A DNA stretch of 64,000 nucleotides. Origin: Dehalococcoidia bacterium (GTDB lineage Bacteria > Chloroflexota > Dehalococcoidia > SpSt-223). The stretch's first letter is position 1; every line of letters begins with the position of its first letter. This document shows positions 38,666 through 59,778 of this stretch, piece after piece. The stretch covers positions 124,001 to 188,000 of the forward strand of contig JANWZD010000004.1 in NCBI GenBank assembly GCA_025054935.1, in the 5' to 3' direction. The notes under the pieces were generated by a model. That model had not been told where the DNA came from and ran no database searches. It saw only the letters and a program-made list of their open reading frames with translations. The translations under genes were made by a program, and so were the position numbers.

Positions 38666-41386
38666 TTAGTCGGCGAAGGCGGCGGCGATGATCCGCGCCT
38701 GCTCAGCGGCATGCCGAAGCGTGGAGCCTTCGGCTGGGCTGGCTTTCTCGCGGCGGCCGATGTAGCGCAGCCGGACGCCCGCCGGCAGCAGGGTCCACAG
38801 CCGCGGGAAGACGAAGCTGTAGGCGCCCATGTTGCGCGGCTCTTCTTGGAGCCAGACGACCTCATGCACGTTGGGATACTCCGCGAGCAGCCGCGCCAAA
38901 TGACCGGTGGGGAAGGGAGCGATCTCCTCGAGCCGGACGATCGCCACGTTCGGGTGCTTCGGTCGTGCCGGGTTGGTCAGCAGCTCGATCGCGACCTTTC
39001 CGCTTGCGAGGATGAGCCGCCGCACCTCGGCACGCCGCGCTGCTGCGTCGGGGTCATCGATCACGGGGAGGAAGCTGCCGGAGGTCAGGCGCTCGAGGGT
39101 CGCTGCTGCGGCTGGGTTGCGCAGCAGGCTCTTCGGCGAAAACAGGATCAGGGGGCGGGCCTCGCCGCGCCGGATGAAGGCGGCTTGCCGCCGCAGCACG
39201 TGGAAATACTGGTCTGCCGTGCTCGGAATGACAACGCGGATGTTGTCTTCGGCAAAGAGCTGGAGAAAGCGCTCAATCCGCGCGCTTGAGTGCTCCGGGC
39301 CCTGGCCTTCGTAGCCGTGAGGAAGCAGCAGCACGATCGCAGAGCGCTCTCTCCACTTCGCCCACGAGGAGACGATGAACTGGTCGATGATCGGCTGGGC
39401 GACGTTGGCGAAGTCGCCGTACTGCGCTTCCCAAAGGACAAGCGCCTCGGGGGCGCCGACGCTGTAGCCGTATTCGAAGCCGAGCGCACCGGTCTCCGAA
39501 AGCGGGCTGTTGTAGACGGCGAAGCTCGCCCGGGCTTGGGGAAGCAGGTGCAGGGGCGAAAATTTCGCTCCTGTCAGCCGGTCGTGCAGCACGAGGTGGC
39601 GGTGGGAAAAGGTGCCGCGCTCACTGTCCTCGCCGGCAAGCCGGATGGGAGTGCCGTCCGCGAGGATGCTCGCAAACGCGAGCGCTTCGGCATGGCCCCA
39701 GTCGATCAGCTTGCCCGGCTCGAGGACGGCACGGGCGCGCTGGAGCTGCTGGTCGAGCTTCGCGACTGGCGTGAAGCCCTCGGGTCGGCGCAGCAGTTCT
39801 GCGTTGAGCGCGCGCAGCGTCTCGAGGGGAACGGCCGTGTCGACATTCGTCTGGCTGGCGCGCGGCCGCTCCGCGACCGCCGGGCCGCTCGGCGCGCCGC
39901 CTTCTGCCGCGGCACGCAGCTCGGCATCGATCTGGGCGAGGAGCTGGTCCGCCTCGCCCGGCCGGATCACTCCGCGCTCCTCAAGCCGGCGCGCCCACAG
40001 TTCACGGACGGTCGGGTGCTGGGCGATCTTGGCGTAGAGCAAGGGCTGGGTATACGCCGGCTCATCGCCCTCGTTGTGGCCCCAGCGCCGATAGCCGACC
40101 ACGTCAATGACGACATCACGGTGGAAGCGCTGCCGGAAGGCGTAGGCGAGGCGAAGGGCAGCAGCGCACGCTTCGACGTCGTCGGCATTGACATGGAAAA
40201 CAGGGACGTCGAAGCCTTTCGCGAGGTCGGAAGCATAGAGGGTGGACCGGCCCTCGACGGGGTCGGTCGTAAAGCCGACTTGGTTGTTGGCGATGAGATG
40301 GATCGTTCCGCCGGTGGTGTAGCCCTCAAGCCGGGCGAGGTTCAGCGTTTCGGCAACGACGCCTTGGCCGGGGAAGGCGGCATCGCCGTGGATCAGGATG
40401 GTCAGCGCGCGATGGGGGTCATGGCGCGGCGCTCCGCCGCGAGAGCGATCGTCCTGCAGGGCGCGCGTATATCCTTCGGCGACCGGATTGACGAATTCCA
40501 GATGGCTCGGGTTCGGCCGCAGATGCACCAGCGGACCGCCGGCATCCGCTGAGCGCCGCCCGATCGCGCCGAGGTGATACTTGACATCGCCGGGGTCGTC
40601 GCTTGCGGCGCCGCTGCCCCGCGCTGCCTCAGCAAAAGCATGAAAAGTGACCGCGAACGGCACCCCGGTGACGAAGGTGCGGGTTGCGAGCCGCCCGCGG
40701 TGCGCCATGCCAAGCACGACGTGCTGAATCCCGTCGCGCTCTGCGAAGCGGACGACGTCGTCGATCATCGGGATCAGGATGTCGAGCCCTTCTCCAGAGA
40801 ACCGTTTCTGGCCGACAAAAGCGCGATGCAGGATCCGCTCAAACGCCTCGACGCGCGTCAGCCGCTCGAGCAGCAGACGCGCCTCGTCGTCATTCAGGCC
40901 GGGCGCATATTCTCGCGACTCGATGGCGTTAGCGAGCCATTGCCGTTCTTCGGCGGAGACAAGGTGCGCGAATTCGTAGCCGATCCGCGTGCAGTACACC
41001 TCGCGCAGGGCGGCGATGGCGGCAGCGGCGTTCGGCGACCCTTCGACGAGCGGTCCGCGCACGATCGCGGCGGGGAGATGGCGCAATTCTTCCTCGGAGA
41101 TGCCGAACTGGGCCAGATCAAGACCGGGGTCTTCCACCGGGCTCTGCCCAAAAGGATCGAGAGGGACAAGGGCGTGGCCACGCTGGCGGATCGCCTCAGC
41201 GAGCAGCACGGCGCGCGCGGCGGTCATGTAGGTCGCTTGGGGGGTTGCTGCGAGGCGCACCGCTGCCCGTTCAGCATGGGGCTGCCCGCTCGCCTCTGGG
41301 GCGCTCTGGGAGATGTCCGCTGGCCGACGACGGCTCTCGACGTCGAGGTCGTGCCCGGAGAAGTCGCCATGGTTCATGCTTCGCAT
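38666..41386 (-). CDS. sucA: 2-oxoglutarate dehydrogenase E1 component
   Basis: A 906-residue thiamine-diphosphate decarboxylase of the TCA cycle (E1o). VVLGMAHRGRLATRTF, LRPNPSHLEFVNPVAEGYTR, ILIHGDAAFPGQGVVAE (TPP/Mg GDA motif), IANNQVGFTTDP and RWGHNEGDEPAYTQPLLY match SucA. HGYEGQGPEHSSARIERFLQ with the EH of the active site is in the pyrimidine domain. It decarboxylates 2-oxoglutarate and passes the succinyl group to an E2 subunit; no E2 or E3 gene lies nearby. The N-terminus has a ~45-residue charged extension. ATG 41386 is the longest start; ATG 41377 is equally possible. A -10 like TATGAT lies at 41437-41432. Confidence 0.94.
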   Translation of the reverse strand: MRSMNHGDFSGHDLDVESRRRPADISQSAPEASGQPHAERAAVRLAATPQATYMTAARAVLLAEAIRQRGHALVPLDPFGQSPVEDPGLDLAQFGISEEELRHLPAAIVRGPLVEGSPNAAAAIAALREVYCTRIGYEFAHLVSAEERQWLANAIESREYAPGLNDDEARLLLERLTRVEAFERILHRAFVGQKRFSGEGLDILIPMIDDVVRFAERDGIQHVVLGMAHRGRLATRTFVTGVPFAVTFHAFAEAARGSGAASDDPGDVKYHLGAIGRRSADAGGPLVHLRPNPSHLEFVNPVAEGYTRALQDDRSRGGAPRHDPHRALTILIHGDAAFPGQGVVAETLNLARLEGYTTGGTIHLIANNQVGFTTDPVEGRSTLYASDLAKGFDVPVFHVNADDVEACAAALRLAYAFRQRFHRDVVIDVVGYRRWGHNEGDEPAYTQPLLYAKIAQHPTVRELWARRLEERGVIRPGEADQLLAQIDAELRAAAEGGAPSGPAVAERPRASQTNVDTAVPLETLRALNAELLRRPEGFTPVAKLDQQLQRARAVLEPGKLIDWGHAEALAFASILADGTPIRLAGEDSERGTFSHRHLVLHDRLTGAKFSPLHLLPQARASFAVYNSPLSETGALGFEYGYSVGAPEALVLWEAQYGDFANVAQPIIDQFIVSSWAKWRERSAIVLLLPHGYEGQGPEHSSARIERFLQLFAEDNIRVVIPSTADQYFHVLRRQAAFIRRGEARPLILFSPKSLLRNPAAAATLERLTSGSFLPVIDDPDAAARRAEVRRLILASGKVAIELLTNPARPKHPNVAIVRLEEIAPFPTGHLARLLAEYPNVHEVVWLQEEPRNMGAYSFVFPRLWTLLPAGVRLRYIGRREKASPAEGSTLRHAAEQARIIAAAFAD

Positions 41387-51665: not shown

Positions 51666-52292
51666 ATGGTCGTCGTTCGAACATGGCCGACCCGTGAGCA
51701 GGAAGACCGCTTCTTCGCCGCCGGCCACGCCCTCGTAGCGGGTGTCGATGAGGTCGGCCGCGGGCCGCTCGCTGGACCGGTTGTTGCGGCCGCGGTGCTC
51801 GCTCCGCCGGATGCCCCGTGGGACCTGCCGGTCGCCGATTCGAAACAGCTGACAGCCTCGGAGCGCGAACGGCTGGCCGCCGCGATCGTCCGCGCGCTGC
51901 CCTGCGCCCTCGGCTTGGCGACGGTCGCCGAAATCGATGACCTCGGGGTCGCTGCCGCCACGCGCCTCGCCATGATGCGGGCGGTGCGCGCGCTTCCCCA
52001 GCAGCCAACGGCGCTCCTGATCGACGCCGTCGCTCTGCCGGGCCTCCGCATTGAGCAGCGCGCGATTGTCCGCGGCGATACCTGCTGCTGGACGATCGCG
52101 GCCGCCTCGGTCGTCGCCAAAGTTGAGCGCGACCGCCTGATGTATGAACTCGACCGCCGCTATCCGGACTATGGCCTAGCGCGCCATAAGGGCTACGCGA
52201 CGGCGGAGCACCTCGAGGCGCTCGCCCGGCTCGGCCCCACGCCGGAGCACCGGCGTTCCTTCGCGCCGCTGCGTCTCTCCCTCGAGCGGTGA
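51666..52292 (+). CDS. rnhB: Ribonuclease HII
   Basis: RNase HII removes ribonucleotides from DNA and degrades RNA-DNA hybrids. The 208-residue protein has HALVAGVDEVGRGPLAGPVV (catalytic Asp and Glu in D-E-x-G-R-G), VADSKQLTASERERL, LLIDAVALPG (third Asp), AASVVAKVERDRLM (Asp near V-x-R-D) and GLARHKGYATAEHLEAL. It ends LRLSLER. The stop overlaps the GTG of yraN, the usual rnhB-yraN pair in bacteria. GAGGG lies close upstream of the ATG. Confidence 0.95.
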   Translation: MVVVRTWPTREQEDRFFAAGHALVAGVDEVGRGPLAGPVVAAAVLAPPDAPWDLPVADSKQLTASERERLAAAIVRALPCALGLATVAEIDDLGVAAATRLAMMRAVRALPQQPTALLIDAVALPGLRIEQRAIVRGDTCCWTIAAASVVAKVERDRLMYELDRRYPDYGLARHKGYATAEHLEALARLGPTPEHRRSFAPLRLSLER

Positions 52293-52654
52293 AGCGCGAT
52301 CGGCTCGGCCGGCTTGGCGAGGCGATCGCTGCCGACGCGCTCGAGCGCGCCGGGCTGCACCTCCTTGCTCGGAACGTGCGTTTCCCCGAGGGCGAAATCG
52401 ACCTCGTCGCCGCAGAAGGCGACACCCTCGTCTTCGTCGAGGTGCGGACACGCCGCGGGGGCGCTTTCGGCTCGCCTGAGGAGTCGGTGACGCTGCGCAA
52501 ACAGGAGCGGCTAGTGCGGGCAGCGCAGCGCTATCTGCAGCAGGCTGGCCGCGAGACTGCCGACTGGCGCATTGATCTTGTCGCGGTCGAGCTCGACCCA
52601 GACGGCCGGCTGCTCCGGGTCGAGCATCTGCGCGCGGCGGTGGAAGAGCAGTGA
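52289..52654 (+). CDS. yraN: UPF0102 family protein YraN
   Basis: A 121-residue protein of the YraN/UPF0102 family with an endonuclease-like fold. LGRLGEAIAADALERAGLHL, LLARNVRFPEGEIDLVAAEG (E-I-D-L-V is the acidic core), LVFVEVRTRRGGAFGSPEE (E-V-K/R-x-R motif) and LRKQERLVRAAQRYLQ match well. Predicted to act on DNA or Holliday-junction-like substrates; experimental function is unknown. GTG start overlapping the rnhB stop. Confidence 0.93.
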   Translation: MKRDRLGRLGEAIAADALERAGLHLLARNVRFPEGEIDLVAAEGDTLVFVEVRTRRGGAFGSPEESVTLRKQERLVRAAQRYLQQAGRETADWRIDLVAVELDPDGRLLRVEHLRAAVEEQ

Positions 52655-52658
52655 GGCG

Positions 52659-52688
52659 TTGACGCTGCCGGGGCATCTTGCGGACAAT
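52659..52688 (+). promoter_or_regulatory. Candidate promoter of the E1 gene pair (leaderless)
   Basis: TTGACG (52659-52664), 18-nt spacer, GACAAT (52683-52688). The predicted start falls at about 52695-52696, exactly the ATG at 52696. No Shine-Dalgarno precedes it. An earlier ATG at 52687 lies inside the -10 and is therefore not used. Confidence 0.5.
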
Positions 52689-52695
52689 GCTCGCC

Positions 52696-53748
52696 ATGCT
52701 GGACCAGCGACGCGAGGTCCCAGTCCGGCTGCTGCGGGCAGCCGCGCTGCGCAGCGAGGAGCAGGCGCTTGTCCGCGTCGACGACGCGCTGCTGCGCGTG
52801 ATGTACGTTCGGATGATCCGGGTCCGCGCCTTCGAACTGCGGGTCGCTCGTCTGCTTGAGGAAGGGGTGCTGAAAGGGGTCCAGCTCTCAGCGGGGCAGG
52901 AGGCGGTAGCGGTCGGCGCGTGCTCGGCGCTGCGCGACGAGGACTATCTTGTCTCGACGGACCGGCCGCATGGCCATCTGCTGGCAAAAGGCGTCTCGCC
53001 GCGCGCCCTTCTCGCTGAGCTGCTGACAAAAGCCGATGGCCTCGCCAGTGGCAAGGGCGGCCCCACCTTTCTCTTCGACGCTGAGCGCGGCGTTCTCGGC
53101 ACGTTCGGGGGAGGCGACGGGCTGCCGATTGCGGTCGGGGCGGCCTTCAGCGCGCGCTCGCGCCAGCGTGACCTCGTCGTGCTCGCCTTCCTGAATGACG
53201 AGGCGGTCGGCTCAGGCGCCTTCGCTGAGGCGGCAAATCTCGCCGCTCTGCGTGCGCTGCCGGTGGTCTTCGTCTATGAAAACCTGCTCACCGAGCCGGA
53301 CGCCTATCGCGCCGTCCGAGCGCTCGACTCTCTGATCGCTCTCGCGCCCGGCTGGGGCATGGCCGGGGTCGCGGTCGATGGGGCGGACCCGCTGGCCGTC
53401 TTCCGGGCCGTGGGCGAGGCGGCGGCGCTCGCCCGCGCCGGCCGCGGCCCGAGCTTCATCGAGGCGCGGCTCGACCCGCCGCGCGCCGTGCTGGCTGGCG
53501 ATGGCGGAGCGGACGATGTGGTCCGCCGCCGCGACCCGATCGTCCGCTTCGCCGAGCGGCTGCGGATGATGGGCCTGCTGACCGCCGAGGACGAGGCTCT
53601 CGTCGAGCGGCGGGCGCGTGAGGAGGCGGATGCCGACCTCGCGTGGGCGCGCTCGTGGCCGGCGCCCGATCCCGGGACGCTGCTGCGCGACGTCTATCAG
53701 GCGCCGATCGATCGCGCGTGGCCGCGCCTTGGCGTGAACGATGGCTGA
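52696..53748 (+). CDS. Dehydrogenase E1-alpha-like protein, catalytic motifs degenerate
   Basis: A 350-residue homologue of pyruvate/branched-chain 2-oxoacid dehydrogenase E1-alpha. The fold is preserved: GVQLSAGQEAVAVGACSALR, DRPHGHLLAKGVSPRALLAE, LPIAVGAAFSARSRQ and AANLAALRALPVVFVYENLL. Key residues are not. The TPP/Mg motif GDG appears as NDE (LAFLNDEAVGSGAF). The GKGGSMH loop reads GKGGPTFLFD, losing the active-site His. The late HGHSxxD loop is replaced by LDPPRAVLAGDGG. So TPP-dependent catalysis by this chain looks unlikely although the reading frame is intact. It overlaps E1-beta by 8 nt. The start is set by the leaderless promoter. Confidence 0.8.
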   Translation: MLDQRREVPVRLLRAAALRSEEQALVRVDDALLRVMYVRMIRVRAFELRVARLLEEGVLKGVQLSAGQEAVAVGACSALRDEDYLVSTDRPHGHLLAKGVSPRALLAELLTKADGLASGKGGPTFLFDAERGVLGTFGGGDGLPIAVGAAFSARSRQRDLVVLAFLNDEAVGSGAFAEAANLAALRALPVVFVYENLLTEPDAYRAVRALDSLIALAPGWGMAGVAVDGADPLAVFRAVGEAAALARAGRGPSFIEARLDPPRAVLAGDGGADDVVRRRDPIVRFAERLRMMGLLTAEDEALVERRAREEADADLAWARSWPAPDPGTLLRDVYQAPIDRAWPRLGVNDG

Positions 53749-54712
53749 GCAGACGACAGAGGCGGCGCTCGCTGCGGCGATGCTGCGCGAGATGGCGCGG
53801 GACGAGACTGTCGTCGTGCTCGGCCGTGCTGGCGGCCACGGGCTGTTTCGGGTGAGCGGCGGCGCGGCCGAGCGGTTCGGCCCAGACCGGGCGTGGAATG
53901 TTCCCGGGAGCGGCGTCGGGCTGGCCGGCATCGCGATCGGGGCGGCGCTCACCGGGCTGCGGCCGGTTGTCGAACTGGGGACGGCCGAGCAGGCGGCGCC
54001 GGCACTCAGCCAGATCGCGGACCACGCCGCCAAGCTGCACTTCCGCTCGGGCGGACGGCTGCAGCTGCCGCTCGTCTTCATCATCACCACCGGAATGACG
54101 CGCTCCGGACCTCTGCGCAGCCAGTCGCTCGAGGCGTGGTTCGCTCACCTGCCAGGGCTGAAGGTCGTGATGCCGGCCACGCCCGCCGATGCTGCCGGCT
54201 TGCTGCGGAGCGCGGTTCGGGATGACGACCCGGTCGTCTTTGTGCTCGACAAGCGGGTGGCGCGCCACGCCGGCGAGACCCCCGACGACGAGCATGCGGT
54301 TCCCCTCGGCCGGGCGGCCGTTCGCCGCGCGGGGCATGACGTGACGATCGTCGCGAGCGGATGGATGGTGCATGAAGCGCTTGCGGCGGCGGACGATCTC
54401 GCTGCGGCGCGGCTGTCCGCTGAGGTGATCGATGTGCGCTCGCTCGTGCCGCTCGACCTAGGGACGATCGTCGCCTCGGTGCGCAAGACGGGCCGTCTTG
54501 TCGTTGCGCACGAGGCCGTCGTTTTCGCTGGCATCGGCGCCGAGATTGTCGCCTCGGTCGTGGAAGCCGCGCCGGGCGCCCTGACCGCTCGGCCGCGCCG
54601 CGTCGGCCTGCCGTTCGTCGTGCCGCCGGCCGATGTCCCGTCGATCGCGCTGGTGCTGCCGAGCCGCCGCGACATTGCGGGCGCTGCGCTCGCCGTCGTC
54701 CACGGGCGCTAA
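53741..54712 (+). CDS. Dehydrogenase E1-beta-like protein, catalytic motifs degenerate
   Basis: A 323-residue E1-beta homologue, translated from an ATG that overlaps the E1-alpha stop by 8 nt. Fold markers are clear: AALAAAMLREMARDETVVVL, GLAGIAIGAALTGLRPVVEL, HLPGLKVVMPATPADAAGLL and VEVIDVRSLVPLDLGTIVAS-like elements. The catalytic Glu of the motif (T)PISE is replaced (NVPGSGVGLAG), and the His of HSQS is Arg (GPLRSQSLEAW). VLGED is VLGRAG. Both losses match the decay of E1-alpha, so the pair may have evolved another function such as a structural or regulatory heterotetramer. There is no E2 or E3 gene next to it; the following gene is convergent with a 4-nt overlap. Confidence 0.8.
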   Translation: MAEQTTEAALAAAMLREMARDETVVVLGRAGGHGLFRVSGGAAERFGPDRAWNVPGSGVGLAGIAIGAALTGLRPVVELGTAEQAAPALSQIADHAAKLHFRSGGRLQLPLVFIITTGMTRSGPLRSQSLEAWFAHLPGLKVVMPATPADAAGLLRSAVRDDDPVVFVLDKRVARHAGETPDDEHAVPLGRAAVRRAGHDVTIVASGWMVHEALAAADDLAAARLSAEVIDVRSLVPLDLGTIVASVRKTGRLVVAHEAVVFAGIGAEIVASVVEAAPGALTARPRRVGLPFVVPPADVPSIALVLPSRRDIAGAALAVVHGR

Positions 54713-56973
54713 GGAAGGCGCAGCGGCCCGAGGTCAGCGCTGTCGCCGCCGTGCGCCAGCAGCACGCGCTGGCCCGTGACCGGGTCATACAGGCCGGCGA
54801 GCAGCCGATAGTCGCCCGGCGGCACGCTTCTCAGGGGGAGGCGACGCTCGTCCAGCAGCCGCTCGTCGGGCAGCCAGGCGTCGGTCGGCAGCGCGCCGTC
54901 CGCCGGCGGGCCGTCAGCCTGAGCAACGAGCCGTCCCGCTCCGTCGACGAGGTGGAGAAAGACCGTGAGCGGCGCAGGGGTCGGCCCGGCGGCGCGCCAG
55001 AACAGGCGCACGCGATCCCCGTCGACTGTCACGCCCTCAAGCTGGCCGACGCCGGGAAAGTCGGCGGCGAGCGGGCGGTCAGGAGCGACAACGGGAGGAC
55101 GAATGATCCGCACAGTGCCGAGCTCGACCGTGTCGCCGCTGGCTGTCGGCAGCCGGCGCACCGCCTCGTCGTAGGCGCCGGCGCGCAGGGAGTAGCGCCC
55201 GGCCGGCAGCGCCTCAGGCAGCCGCAGCTCATGGCGGTCGAGCAGCCGTTCGCCAGGGCGCCAGCGGCTGGTCGGATAGAACACTCCGCCCGGCGGCGCA
55301 TCGCTCTGGGCAACGAGCTGCCCTCGGTGGTCGAGGAGGTGGACGAAGGTCGTCAGGTTCTTTTCGGGCGGCGCGACGACTGACCACCAGAGCGCGACCG
55401 GCAGCGTCGCGCCCGCCGGCTGGGGGGGAAATTCCGCTCCGTCGAGCCGCAGGGCCGAACCGACAGCGGCGTCAAGCCGGGTTGGCGGCTCGCGGTCGAC
55501 GGCCGGTCCGACCACCCTCCAGACGGCGCCGACCGGCTCAAGCCGGTATTTCACGCTCAGCCCCGGCATCTCCTTGATGAGGAAGACCTGCTCGCCGGGG
55601 CCGAGCACGCCGTCGATCAGCCGCCCGAGGTCGGCGTACTCCGGGCTGTTGACAATGCCGGGGAAGAGGCCGACGAGGTCGGGACGCACCCCTTCGACGA
55701 GCGTAAAGTACCAGAGGGGTGTCAGGTCGTCGCGGTCGTCGGAGGCGAGGATGGCGCGCGGCGGGAGCGGTGCGGCGAGGATGCGCTCCCAACGCTGCCG
55801 GACCTCCCGGTCGCCGCTCCGGTCGACACGGGGCAGCGTGGTGAGCAGAGCGGCCCCCACGAGGAGCGCTGTCGCCGCGCCGCCGAGCGCGAGGCCGACT
55901 GCTAGCCGGCGTGCCGCCTCGACGAGCGCTCCGAGTGCCGTGCCTGCCGCCAGCGCCGCTGCCCAATACGCCGGGATGAAATAGACCTCGATGTCGCCGA
56001 TCCGGTAGAGCAGGGCGAAGGCGACCGTGACGGCGAAGATGCCCGTTACGAGCAGCCCCTCCCGCGGTCTCCGCACGAGCAACATTAGGGCCCCGAGCCC
56101 TGCCGCCAGCCAGACTGCGCTGGGCCACTGCCGCCCGGCGAGGCGGAGAAAGAGTGCCAGCCGCTCCTCAAGGCGCAGGGGGGAAGTCAGCTTGTCGGCA
56201 AAGACTCGGCCGGTCACCATATCGATAAAGCCGTCGAGGTCGTTCTGGAAGGAGACGATGCGGCGGCCGCCTGCCGTCTCTTGGGCGAGATAGGGCGAAT
56301 GGTCGGCGCGCAGGGGAATGTAGAGATAGAGCGCGAGGGGGAGGACAGCAAGCAGCGCCGTCAGCGCGAGGGAGCGCGGCGCGAGGAGCGCTCGGCCGCG
56401 GTCGGCAGCGAGAAAGAGCGCAAGGAGGGGCAGCGTCAGGAGCGCGGCGCGGTGGTGGGCGAGCGACAGCCCGACGATCAGCCCGACGAGGGGAAGCGGC
56501 CAGCGGCGGACGACGGCGAGGGTGAGGGCGGCGAGCAGCAGCAGTTGAAGCGCGTACACTTCGGCGATCACGGCCTGAGACCAGAGGTCGGAGGAGAGCG
56601 CGGCGAGCGCGGCGGCTGCGAACCCTCCCAGCCGCGCGGCAGCGGCCGGTCCGGGCAGGACCGTGATGGCGAGGAGCGTCGTCAGCGCGACGGCAGCTGC
56701 TGCTGCGACCGCGGAGAACAGGTTGATGCGGTAAGCGACGTCCCCGACCGGCAGGAAGGCGAACAGCCAGCCGAGGAGGAGATAGAGGGGGTAGCCGGTC
56801 GGGTGGACGAGGCCGAGTGTCGGCGCGGCGAACTGGAACTCGCCGCTATCGAAGGCGAGGACAGTCGGGGCGAGTGTTCGGACGTAGAGCGCAAGCGCCG
56901 CCAGCCCGGCCGCTGCGCCGAGCGTCAGGTCGAGCGCCCGGAGGGAGCGAGGAGCGGTCGCGTCTCCTCTCAT
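54709..56973 (-). CDS. DUF2723 membrane protein (GT-C/protein O-mannosyltransferase-like) with C-terminal beta modules
   Basis: A 754-residue integral membrane protein. The first loop VLAFDSGEFQFAAPTLGLVH, then PTGYPLYLLLGWLFAFLPVG, is diagnostic of DUF2723, a GT-C family related to protein O-mannosyltransferases. About ten helices extend to residue ~390. The C-terminal ~250 residues contain two beta modules (from ~524 and ~651; FVHLLDHRGQLVAQSDAPP, FLHLVDGAGRLVAQADGPP) identical in plan to those at 7936 and 10998. Likely a lipid-linked-sugar glycosyltransferase with an external sensing or binding part. ATG at 56973 overlaps the upstream stop by ATGA, so it shares an mRNA with the ILEI-domain protein. 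Confidence 0.85.
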   Translation of the reverse strand: MRGDATAPRSLRALDLTLGAAAGLAALALYVRTLAPTVLAFDSGEFQFAAPTLGLVHPTGYPLYLLLGWLFAFLPVGDVAYRINLFSAVAAAAAVALTTLLAITVLPGPAAAARLGGFAAAALAALSSDLWSQAVIAEVYALQLLLLAALTLAVVRRWPLPLVGLIVGLSLAHHRAALLTLPLLALFLAADRGRALLAPRSLALTALLAVLPLALYLYIPLRADHSPYLAQETAGGRRIVSFQNDLDGFIDMVTGRVFADKLTSPLRLEERLALFLRLAGRQWPSAVWLAAGLGALMLLVRRPREGLLVTGIFAVTVAFALLYRIGDIEVYFIPAYWAAALAAGTALGALVEAARRLAVGLALGGAATALLVGAALLTTLPRVDRSGDREVRQRWERILAAPLPPRAILASDDRDDLTPLWYFTLVEGVRPDLVGLFPGIVNSPEYADLGRLIDGVLGPGEQVFLIKEMPGLSVKYRLEPVGAVWRVVGPAVDREPPTRLDAAVGSALRLDGAEFPPQPAGATLPVALWWSVVAPPEKNLTTFVHLLDHRGQLVAQSDAPPGGVFYPTSRWRPGERLLDRHELRLPEALPAGRYSLRAGAYDEAVRRLPTASGDTVELGTVRIIRPPVVAPDRPLAADFPGVGQLEGVTVDGDRVRLFWRAAGPTPAPLTVFLHLVDGAGRLVAQADGPPADGALPTDAWLPDERLLDERRLPLRSVPPGDYRLLAGLYDPVTGQRVLLAHGGDSADLGPLRLP

Positions 56974-59693
56974 CCGCCGATGCTCACGCGCTCAACGGCG
57001 ATGCCGAGGGTCCGCTCATCAAGGGAGCGCCCGACGGCAAGGCGAACGGTCTCTGTTCCGCTTGCCTCGAGGGCCGTGCCGGGCGCTGCGCCCTTGACGC
57101 CGATCGCGGCGTGAGAGAGACGAAAGCCGCCGCGGAGGTCGGTAGCGATCCCCAGCGCGCGGAAGGCGGCGACGGCGTCCTCGCCGAGTTTGGCCGAGGC
57201 GTCGTCCTTGACGGCGAGGGCGACGATTGTTCCCGGGGGGAGGTCGGCGATCGCCTTGGCAAGCCGACCGGAGGCGCCATCGTCGGCAAATGTGTCGTAG
57301 CTCGCAGAGAGGAGGATACGGCCGCTCGCTGGGTCGAGGGCGACGAGGTTGTAGCCGCGCCGGTCGCGCGCGACTGACCGGCCGTCGACGACGATCCGCG
57401 CGGCATTGCCGGCGTTCAGTCCCGCCGACTCAACGCGCAGGTCGACGGGAGCGCGAATGCCGGTAGCGCCAATGGTCCGGTCGACGGGAAGGACATCCGC
57501 CGGGCGGACCAGGCGGTCGACCTCGACATCGAGCCGATTTGCGCCGGTGACGAACTGCGAAGCGGCGGCGGTCACTTGATAGTCGTGGAAGCCGCTGTGC
57601 AGGGGGAACTCTCCGAGCAGGTGGCCGTTGAGGCGCAGCCGGAGCGTTCCCTCTGGCCGGCCGGGATAGTCGAACGGCGCGGCGCGGACCGTCAGCGAAA
57701 CTGTCGCTGCTGCGCCGACGTTGGGGATGAAGATCCGCGCTGAGGAGCGGGTCGACCAGCGGACGGGGCGGCCCTGGTAGACCTCCTCGCCCGTCCAGCC
57801 GTCGCCGCGATACGGCCGTCCGGCCGGCTCTCCGAACGCGATCGCCACAGGGAGGGACACGGGTTGCGGCGTGATGCGATAGAGCGCGGTCGCGCCGTCA
57901 TCGCGGACGAGTTCGAGCGGGAGCACCCGCTGCGCGTACGCTTCAGCTTCTGCGACGCCGTAGGCGCGATGGACAGCGAGGAAGCGCAGGTCATAGAGCG
58001 CGATCAAGCGCGGCGCAGCGGCGCGGTCGGCAGCCTCGGTCGCCGCGTCGGGCTGCTCTCCCTGCTCGATGCGGGCGATCGTTCCGAAGACGGGCAGGTC
58101 GGAGAAGTAGACGAATTTGAAGGGCGGGTTGCGCGAGATGTTGCCGCCGAGCATGCGCTTCTGGTGGGCGTATTGGTAGGCTTGGATCGTCGTTCGCTCT
58201 TTGCCGAGCACGCCGTAGCTGTTGCGCCAGCCGAGCGGCAGCTGGACGATCGCGAAGTCGCCGGGTTCGGCGGCGATAAGCTGATAGATCGCTGGCGCGC
58301 GCAGGTTGTTCAGCGGCAGCGGCACGGCGATCTGGTCGAAGAGGAGGACGACGAGCAGGGCGCCGGCGGCGAGCCGCTCCCGCTGGGGGCGCAATGCCCG
58401 CAGCACGGCCGCCGCGCCGAAGGCGACGAGCACAGCAAGGCAGAGCGTCAGCGGGATGCTGAAACGGTTTGGGAAGCGGTTGGCGTTGATCAACGGAAGA
58501 TAGTGGAGCGCGATATAGGGAAGGGGGAAATTCGTCTCGATCCCGTCGAAGGTCCAGCGCGAGCGGCCGAGGATGTGAAGCACGGGGCCGAGACAGAGCA
58601 CGGCGAAGGCGACGGCCATCCATCCCCATCGCCGGGCCGCGTGAAACCGCCAGAGCGCAACGATCGTATTAAAAAGCACCCCATAGCCGATAAAGACAAT
58701 AGGAACATCGGTGAACTGGCTCGTCCACGGTGCAGCGAGAGGGCCAAGGATGGGGTGAAGGTGCGTGGGGAGGACAAAGGAAAGGAGGTCGGCGGAGAAG
58801 CCATCGGCGTAGCCCCAGCGATTGGTGAGATAGTGCCCCTCGAGGCGATCCTCATGCCACATCAGGGCAAGCAGGGGCGCGGCGACAAGCGCGCATCCCG
58901 CGCCGATTGCAGCGAGCGGGACGATCAGCCGCAGCGGCTGATGCCCGGCGCGGGCGGAGCGCCAGAGGTGATGGCCGATGAGGGGGAAGGCAAGGAACAA
59001 ACTGAAGGCGGCGAGCGTTAACTCGTTGTAGAAAAGACAGGCGAACCAAAGGACGGCCAGGGCCGGGTGGACCCAGGTCGTCCCTTTGGCGTCCCATCGA
59101 TCGAGGGTTTGAAGGAGGGAAAGCGCGAAGAGGGGAAGCGGCCACAGCGTCGTCAGATTGCTCGACCCGAACGACGCGTACACCCAGCGCGAGGCAGCGA
59201 ACGCGAAGATCGCGCCACCGAGAAACGCTGGAATGCCGGCAGGGCGGATCCCCTCGCGCACAAGTATATACCGACACAAGAGAAATGCGGCAAGACCATT
59301 TCCGGTCAACGAAAGCACCAACAGGACATTGATAGCGCCGATGGGCCCGATGAAGGGCTGCAGGGGAAGAGAGAGCAGGCCATTGAGAAAGGTAAGAGTG
59401 TAATACACCAAGCTGACGCCGACCGGATAGAAGATATAGTCGGTAAAGAAGGGAGAGACGCCGAGCGAGAAGATCGAAAAGCGGAGCCACCAAAGGTTCC
59501 AGACAAAGATCCCCTCGTCGACGTCGATCCCAACGACATGGTCGAGAAAATGCAGCGGAAGCGGCCACGTCAGGATGACGGCGAGAACGAAGTAGCTCGC
59601 CGCCGCAAGAAGCGGGCCGCGGAGCGAAACGACCAGCGAAACGCTCGTTACGGCCGGCTGGAACGCCGGATCGGAAGCGAGCCGGGATGTCAC
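56970..59693 (-). CDS. Large membrane protein (YfhO/GT-C-like) with C-terminal ILEI domain
   Basis: About 907 residues. Residues ~10-450 hold some ten to twelve hydrophobic helices with LTWPLPLHFLDHVVGIDVDE, an acidic loop like those of GT-C or YfhO proteins. A soluble middle part follows, including a beta-sandwich (LRLRLNGHLLGEFPLHSGFH, ~690). The C-terminus (~770-870) matches the ILEI/FAM3 domain: DRRGYNLVALDPASGRILLS, SYDTFADDGASGRLAKAIAD, LPPGTIVALAVKDDASAKLG and FRLSHAAIGVKG. Function unknown; lipid-linked sugar transfer plus glycan recognition is plausible. No ribosome binding site precedes the longer ATG start at 59723; TACCAT six bases before GTG 59693 suggests a leaderless start there. 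Confidence 0.75.
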   Translation of the reverse strand: MTSRLASDPAFQPAVTSVSLVVSLRGPLLAAASYFVLAVILTWPLPLHFLDHVVGIDVDEGIFVWNLWWLRFSIFSLGVSPFFTDYIFYPVGVSLVYYTLTFLNGLLSLPLQPFIGPIGAINVLLVLSLTGNGLAAFLLCRYILVREGIRPAGIPAFLGGAIFAFAASRWVYASFGSSNLTTLWPLPLFALSLLQTLDRWDAKGTTWVHPALAVLWFACLFYNELTLAAFSLFLAFPLIGHHLWRSARAGHQPLRLIVPLAAIGAGCALVAAPLLALMWHEDRLEGHYLTNRWGYADGFSADLLSFVLPTHLHPILGPLAAPWTSQFTDVPIVFIGYGVLFNTIVALWRFHAARRWGWMAVAFAVLCLGPVLHILGRSRWTFDGIETNFPLPYIALHYLPLINANRFPNRFSIPLTLCLAVLVAFGAAAVLRALRPQRERLAAGALLVVLLFDQIAVPLPLNNLRAPAIYQLIAAEPGDFAIVQLPLGWRNSYGVLGKERTTIQAYQYAHQKRMLGGNISRNPPFKFVYFSDLPVFGTIARIEQGEQPDAATEAADRAAAPRLIALYDLRFLAVHRAYGVAEAEAYAQRVLPLELVRDDGATALYRITPQPVSLPVAIAFGEPAGRPYRGDGWTGEEVYQGRPVRWSTRSSARIFIPNVGAAATVSLTVRAAPFDYPGRPEGTLRLRLNGHLLGEFPLHSGFHDYQVTAAASQFVTGANRLDVEVDRLVRPADVLPVDRTIGATGIRAPVDLRVESAGLNAGNAARIVVDGRSVARDRRGYNLVALDPASGRILLSASYDTFADDGASGRLAKAIADLPPGTIVALAVKDDASAKLGEDAVAAFRALGIATDLRGGFRLSHAAIGVKGAAPGTALEASGTETVRLAVGRSLDERTLGIAVERVSIGG

Positions 59694-59778
59694 TCCGGGA
59701 TGGTAGCACAGCCCGGAGGTCATCCTGAGAGGAACAGGGATGACAGAACCGCCTGTCTTGCGGTGAGGTGGAATGAAG

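Follow-up and report, generated by a model that had tools for sequence, protein, structure and literature searches.

An intact E1-family gene pair in Dehalococcoidia that probably encodes a two-chain pseudoenzyme conserved under purifying selection

Introduction

The closest described systems to the gene pair examined here are the PDH and branched-chain E1 components (PF00676; PF02779 and PF02780; structures 1ni4, 1umb, and 1w85). The pair resembles them in its domains, predicted fold, alpha-beta gene order, and conserved core. Unlike them, it lacks the ThDP-Mg motif, the activating Glu, the stacking Phe, and the catalytic His residues; its catalytic loop is cut, the presumed E2-anchoring acid is lost, and no E2 or E3 genes adjoin it. 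In split-chain transketolase, the two chains together constitute an active enzyme, not a pseudoenzyme, and in this they differ from the present pair. The likeness to that system (inactive beta4 form, 6yaj) is a related two-gene ThDP architecture.

Human TKTL1, a paralogue within the ThDP superfamily, has been retained despite damage to its cofactor site and is thought to act non-catalytically; His103, Asp155, and Asn187 are missing from it owing to a 38-residue deletion, and it reportedly does not bind ThDP (PMC12525540). It is a single-chain eukaryotic transketolase whose site was lost mainly via one deletion, whereas the losses described here are many substitutions spread across two separately encoded bacterial E1 chains. 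Inactive ThDP-fold paralogues are thus already known, e.g. TKTL1, and by analogy the putatively inactive E1 pair is a further variant. The trypanosome AdoMetDC prozyme is likewise a catalytically dead paralogue that is kept and used, although its fold is unrelated and it activates a live partner (PMC5201418). No description of an E1 pair that is dead in both chains yet conserved was found in full-text searches of an open-access library.

Results

The gene pair and its locus

The pair is harbored by a 3.57-Mb Dehalococcoidia-type MAG. The window, i.e. the whole stretch of DNA that was analyzed, comprises 64,000 nt of contig C4 (124001-188000), and the coordinates of the pair and its neighbors are given within it. 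The E1-alpha-like chain (350 aa) is encoded at 52696..53748 (+), and the E1-beta-like chain (323 aa) is encoded at 53741..54712 (+). Both frames were intact by ORF reading and overlapped by 8 nt (53741-53748), as an initial annotation of this DNA had stated. The alpha start at 52696 was picked by alignment to the start of the ortholog in a sister species (see below); an in-frame ATG is also found upstream, at 52687. Pfam assigned the E1_dh fold to alpha (126.8 bits) and the pyrimidine (Transket_pyr) and C-terminal (Transketolase_C) domains to beta, which is the domain make-up of an E1. NCBIfam PDH E1 models matched both chains, in each case under the curated cut-offs.

The neighbors of the pair are genes for RNase HII, YraN, and TMEM260-like proteins. 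Those for RNase HII (51666..52292, +; PF01351) and YraN/UPF0102 (52289..52654, +; PF02021) lie upstream; the former is part of the same tight gene cluster, with its order kept in the sister species, and the latter ends 41 nt ahead of alpha (44 nt in the sister species). Linkage to E2 and E3 genes, which is usual but not obligatory for an E1, was not observed: there is no E2 or E3 gene near the pair, and the two E2 genes of the host genome are located on contigs C15 and C7.

Between YraN and alpha, a promoter-like element, TTGACG-N18-GACAAT (52659..52688, +), was located 7 nt before the alpha ATG; it is a consensus match only. It was the sole sigma-70-like match in 3.4 kb, where 0.1 would be expected. 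The sister species has identical hexamers and spacing, 8 nt before its alpha ATG. The site suggests that the pair may have its own transcript, leaderless or nearly so.

Lost and retained active-site residues

For residue mapping, each chain was aligned with its homologues (30 for alpha, 26 for beta) and with a reference protein, human alpha or Geobacillus beta; losses are numbered as in human PDH E1. In that numbering, the Mg ligands are D167, N196, and Y198, and the residue that activates ThDP is Glu59 (PMC6168537). The losses mapped in alpha were H63Q, Y89D/E, G168E, Y198L, deletion of the Mg ligand N196, V138G with a one-residue deletion, and H263V in a shortened catalytic loop from which HGHS is absent. 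The ThDP-Mg motif, GDG-X(25-30)-N(N), was not found: the former GDG (53194..53202, +; coordinates from codons) reads N-D-E here and S-D-E in the sister species and is followed by EN-deletion-LL, with the Asp kept and the Asn ligand absent. Alpha retains R90, D167, and A169; D167 and R90 correspond to Asp174 and Arg96 in the window's chain. Because these two residues are kept, the chain may still bind ThDP or a diphosphate weakly.

In beta, the losses were E59G/A, F85Q (the pyrimidine-stacking Phe), H128R, and a change of the E-D of the GED motif to R-A. The former PISE (53903..53914, +; from codons 55-58) reads P-G-S-G here and P-A-S-A in the sister species, the activating Glu, present in 26/26 homologues, having been replaced by Gly and Ala, respectively. 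The former HSQS (54116..54127, +; from codons 126-129) reads R-S-Q-S in both species. All three active-site His residues are replaced in both species, and they are invariant among the homologues (30/30 for alpha H63, 30/30 for alpha H263, and 26/26 for beta H128). In a larger set of ca. 77 alpha and ca. 78 beta homologues, mostly of the same class, the site residues were intact almost without exception.

All five motif readings of the initial annotation (NDE, GKGGPTF, the missing HGHS, PGSG, and RSQS) were thus recovered. Its loss of GDG holds for both glycines; the Asp (the Mg ligand D167) is retained, as is Arg90. The loss is real, but its extent had been underestimated: alpha H63, Y89, V138, N196, and Y198, beta F85, and the E-D of GED had been missed. 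That the residues might be displaced but present was checked by alignment and mapping; they are missing, and the flanks are well aligned.

Among conserved columns, 55/85 in alpha and 55/72 in beta were kept in both species, as were most structural glycines. Of the 11 well-conserved positions that contact ThDP or substrate, eight were lost, compared to 32/146 other conserved columns (Fisher p = 0.0009, the division into contacts and non-contacts being the analyst's own choice). The losses concentrate at the cofactor site beyond chance.

In AlphaFold models built from locus-only alignments, the pLDDT was 87.8 for beta and 82.9 for alpha; two stretches of beta adjacent to the altered site, residues 31-33 and 121-124, were below 50. 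The best PDB matches were solved E1 chains, with query-length TM-scores of ca. 0.91-0.95 (beta; ca. 0.93-0.95 for the top E1-beta chains) and 0.70-0.78 (alpha). Both folds are predicted to be preserved.

Orthologue and distribution

A search for orthologues with the same substitutions yielded one such pair, in Dehalococcoidia bacterium KatS3mg060 (the sister species), where the chains are 78% (alpha) and 79% (beta) identical to those in the window and have the same gene order. Twelve genes, from a PALP dehydratase to a sigma factor, are collinear between the two carriers. No other degenerate relatives were found in 393 genomes of the class, in 400 of the phylum, or when 84,980 species genomes were scanned for two short peptide patterns (DDALLRVM and MIR[VI]RAFE), a scan that was hence non-exhaustive.

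The pair occurs in two of the three genomes of its order in the collection. The third, G001, is without it, and there the YraN gene and the TMEM260-like gene are each flanked by different genes. Either gain preceded the divergence of the two carriers, or G001 has lost the pair; since G001 is without it, the pair is dispensable there. By eye, the YraN and TMEM260-like genes of G001 adjoin genes resembling those for peptide-type ABC substrate-binding proteins (L133, 6328-7851, and L129, 9503-11296). A separate observation concerns an E1 beta homologue (L061, on contig C47 of G038) that seems to be without the HSQ stretch, its alpha keeping ENN; it may be a further degenerate example, or the alignment may simply have a gap there.

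Selection

Between the two carriers, dN/dS (NG86) was 0.148 for alpha (bootstrap 0.107-0.202) and 0.142 for beta (0.100-0.195); these values derive from one two-species comparison with dS near 1. A dN/dS near 1 had been named in advance as a result that would contradict retention by selection, and that reading thus stands. The flanking genes gave 0.04-0.23, a range within which the pair falls. The catalytic E1 pair on contig C8 of the host gave 0.067 and 0.043 between the same two genomes. Constraint on the pair is therefore 2-3 times weaker than on this catalytic pair, yet far from neutral.

The former active-site codons were no looser than the rest (dN/dS 0.109 and 0.116), and identity between the carriers was 81-82% at the former site vs. 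78% elsewhere. The peptides ENLLTEP, GKGGPTFL, and RSQSLEAW were unchanged between the species. When unselected change was simulated at 25% of sites, none of 2000 trials left an open double frame.

Origin and relation to the dehydrogenase complex

In separate trees, alpha and beta were both placed in one E1 group (genomes G022, G023, and G026; families f33, f70, and f20). The stem of the pair was very long (2.32 changes/site for alpha and 1.79 for beta), compared to only 0.35 and 0.45 between the carriers. Besides its two E2 genes, the host genome encodes C8 and C15, both catalytic E1 pairs, and the chains of the present pair are 36-49% identical to the host's catalytic chains. Descent from C8 or C15 was unsupported, both trees placing the pair in the other group (SH-aLRT 89 and 83; support for the placement is moderate, as these are quick trees with a long branch). 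In three checked members of that group, E2 was beside E1 in 3/3 and E3 in 2/3. By eye, no E2 or E3 gene stood out when the larger ORFs in the 12 kb around the catalytic C8 pair (L069, 4798-6849, G000; motifs intact) were inspected.

In 24/26 homologues, beta has Asp at position 282. We take this position to be the anchor for the subunit-binding domain of E2 (Geobacillus Glu285, human Asp289; 1w85). The residue there is not acidic in the two carriers (Thr/Lys), and the surrounding segment has been rewritten. Because the pair has no E2 or E3 neighbors and the presumed anchor acid has been lost, we infer that it has probably become detached from the dehydrogenase complex.

Discussion

The pair is probably an intact two-chain pseudoenzyme of the E1 family, conserved under purifying selection: catalytic residues have been lost, and the frames and predicted folds have been kept. 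As judged from the sequences, this points to a job that would be non-enzymatic or new. The initial annotation had argued that the changes were not random decay, and the low dN/dS and the frames open in both species bear this out.

The following course of events is proposed. An E1 pair of the kind usually found in an E1a-E1b-E2 operon would have been duplicated or acquired. It would then have evolved very fast; both chains would have been stripped of the ThDP-Mg site, and beta also of the presumed E2 anchor, before the pair was fixed and retained by purifying selection. The two chains would still pair with one another, as an alpha2beta2 assembly unable to decarboxylate, because they share an 8-nt translational overlap and because joint loss would be needless were each chain joined to a catalytic partner. 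This assembly would act via binding, at a remodelled interface pocket or a surface, instead of ThDP chemistry, and probably apart from an E2 core. The fuller version of this proposal, in which an alpha2beta2 pseudoenzyme has left the complex, its old interface pocket has become a binding site for something else, and it is expressed from its own conserved promoter within the RNase HII-YraN cluster, is put forward tentatively, with somewhat less than even confidence.

The leading functional rival is that the dead pair regulates a live dehydrogenase, filling E1 sites on E2 or mixing chains with catalytic E1 and thereby tuning flux. Inactive paralogues (the trypanosome prozyme and human TKTL1) have been proposed to work in this way, and activation of a partner by a dead paralogue is documented (PMC5201418). 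The host could supply targets in its two catalytic E1 pairs and two E2 genes, and the predicted models keep their folds. Against this, the presumed E2-anchoring acid of beta is Thr/Lys in a rewritten segment, identity to the host's catalytic chains is merely 36-49%, and no dehydrogenase gene adjoins the pair; such regulation appears unlikely.

A little less likely still is that a cofactor or a substrate analogue binds to the pair, which would catalyze a different reaction, one that is ThDP-light or ThDP-independent. Constraint at the former site is no weaker than elsewhere in the chains, Asp174, Arg96, and GKGG are kept, and three site peptides are identical between the species. However, neither the Mg-ligand Asn nor the activating Glu survives, three His residues and the stacking Phe are gone as well, and no new conserved catalytic constellation was identified in their place.

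It is highly improbable that the pair is simply an active E1 whose site is a variant and whose alignment is misleading. The equivalents of Asp167 and Arg90 are retained, and some ThDP enzymes, such as glyoxylate carboligase, function without the activating Glu; but here the motifs are substituted in place between well-aligned residues of both chains, and the Mg ligand is missing together with the Glu, the stacking Phe, and the substrate His. Equally improbable are decaying pseudogenes that still lack stops: the catalytic pair has a dN/dS 2-3 times lower, and G001 is without the present pair, but decay was rejected because dN/dS is low, constraint lies within the range of the neighboring genes, the frames are uninterrupted in the two species despite a dS near 1, simulated unselected change breaks them, and the folds are confidently predicted.

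If the preferred reading of a conserved pseudoenzyme is true, core machinery of central metabolism would be re-usable in bacteria as a non-catalytic two-chain protein, and the pair would be a clean, testable case of neofunctionalization, with catalytic paralogues in the same genome. It would also be a warning for annotation pipelines, as its domains identify the pair as PDH E1 although both chains are under the NCBIfam cut-offs.

Two further genes in the window were noted. A 917-aa protein with a C-terminal ILEI (interleukin-like EMT inducer) domain by Pfam is encoded at 56970-59723 (-) and adjoins a TMEM260-like gene, and an OGDH-type E1 (SucA-like by Pfam) is encoded at 38666-41386 (-), ca. 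11 kb from the pair.
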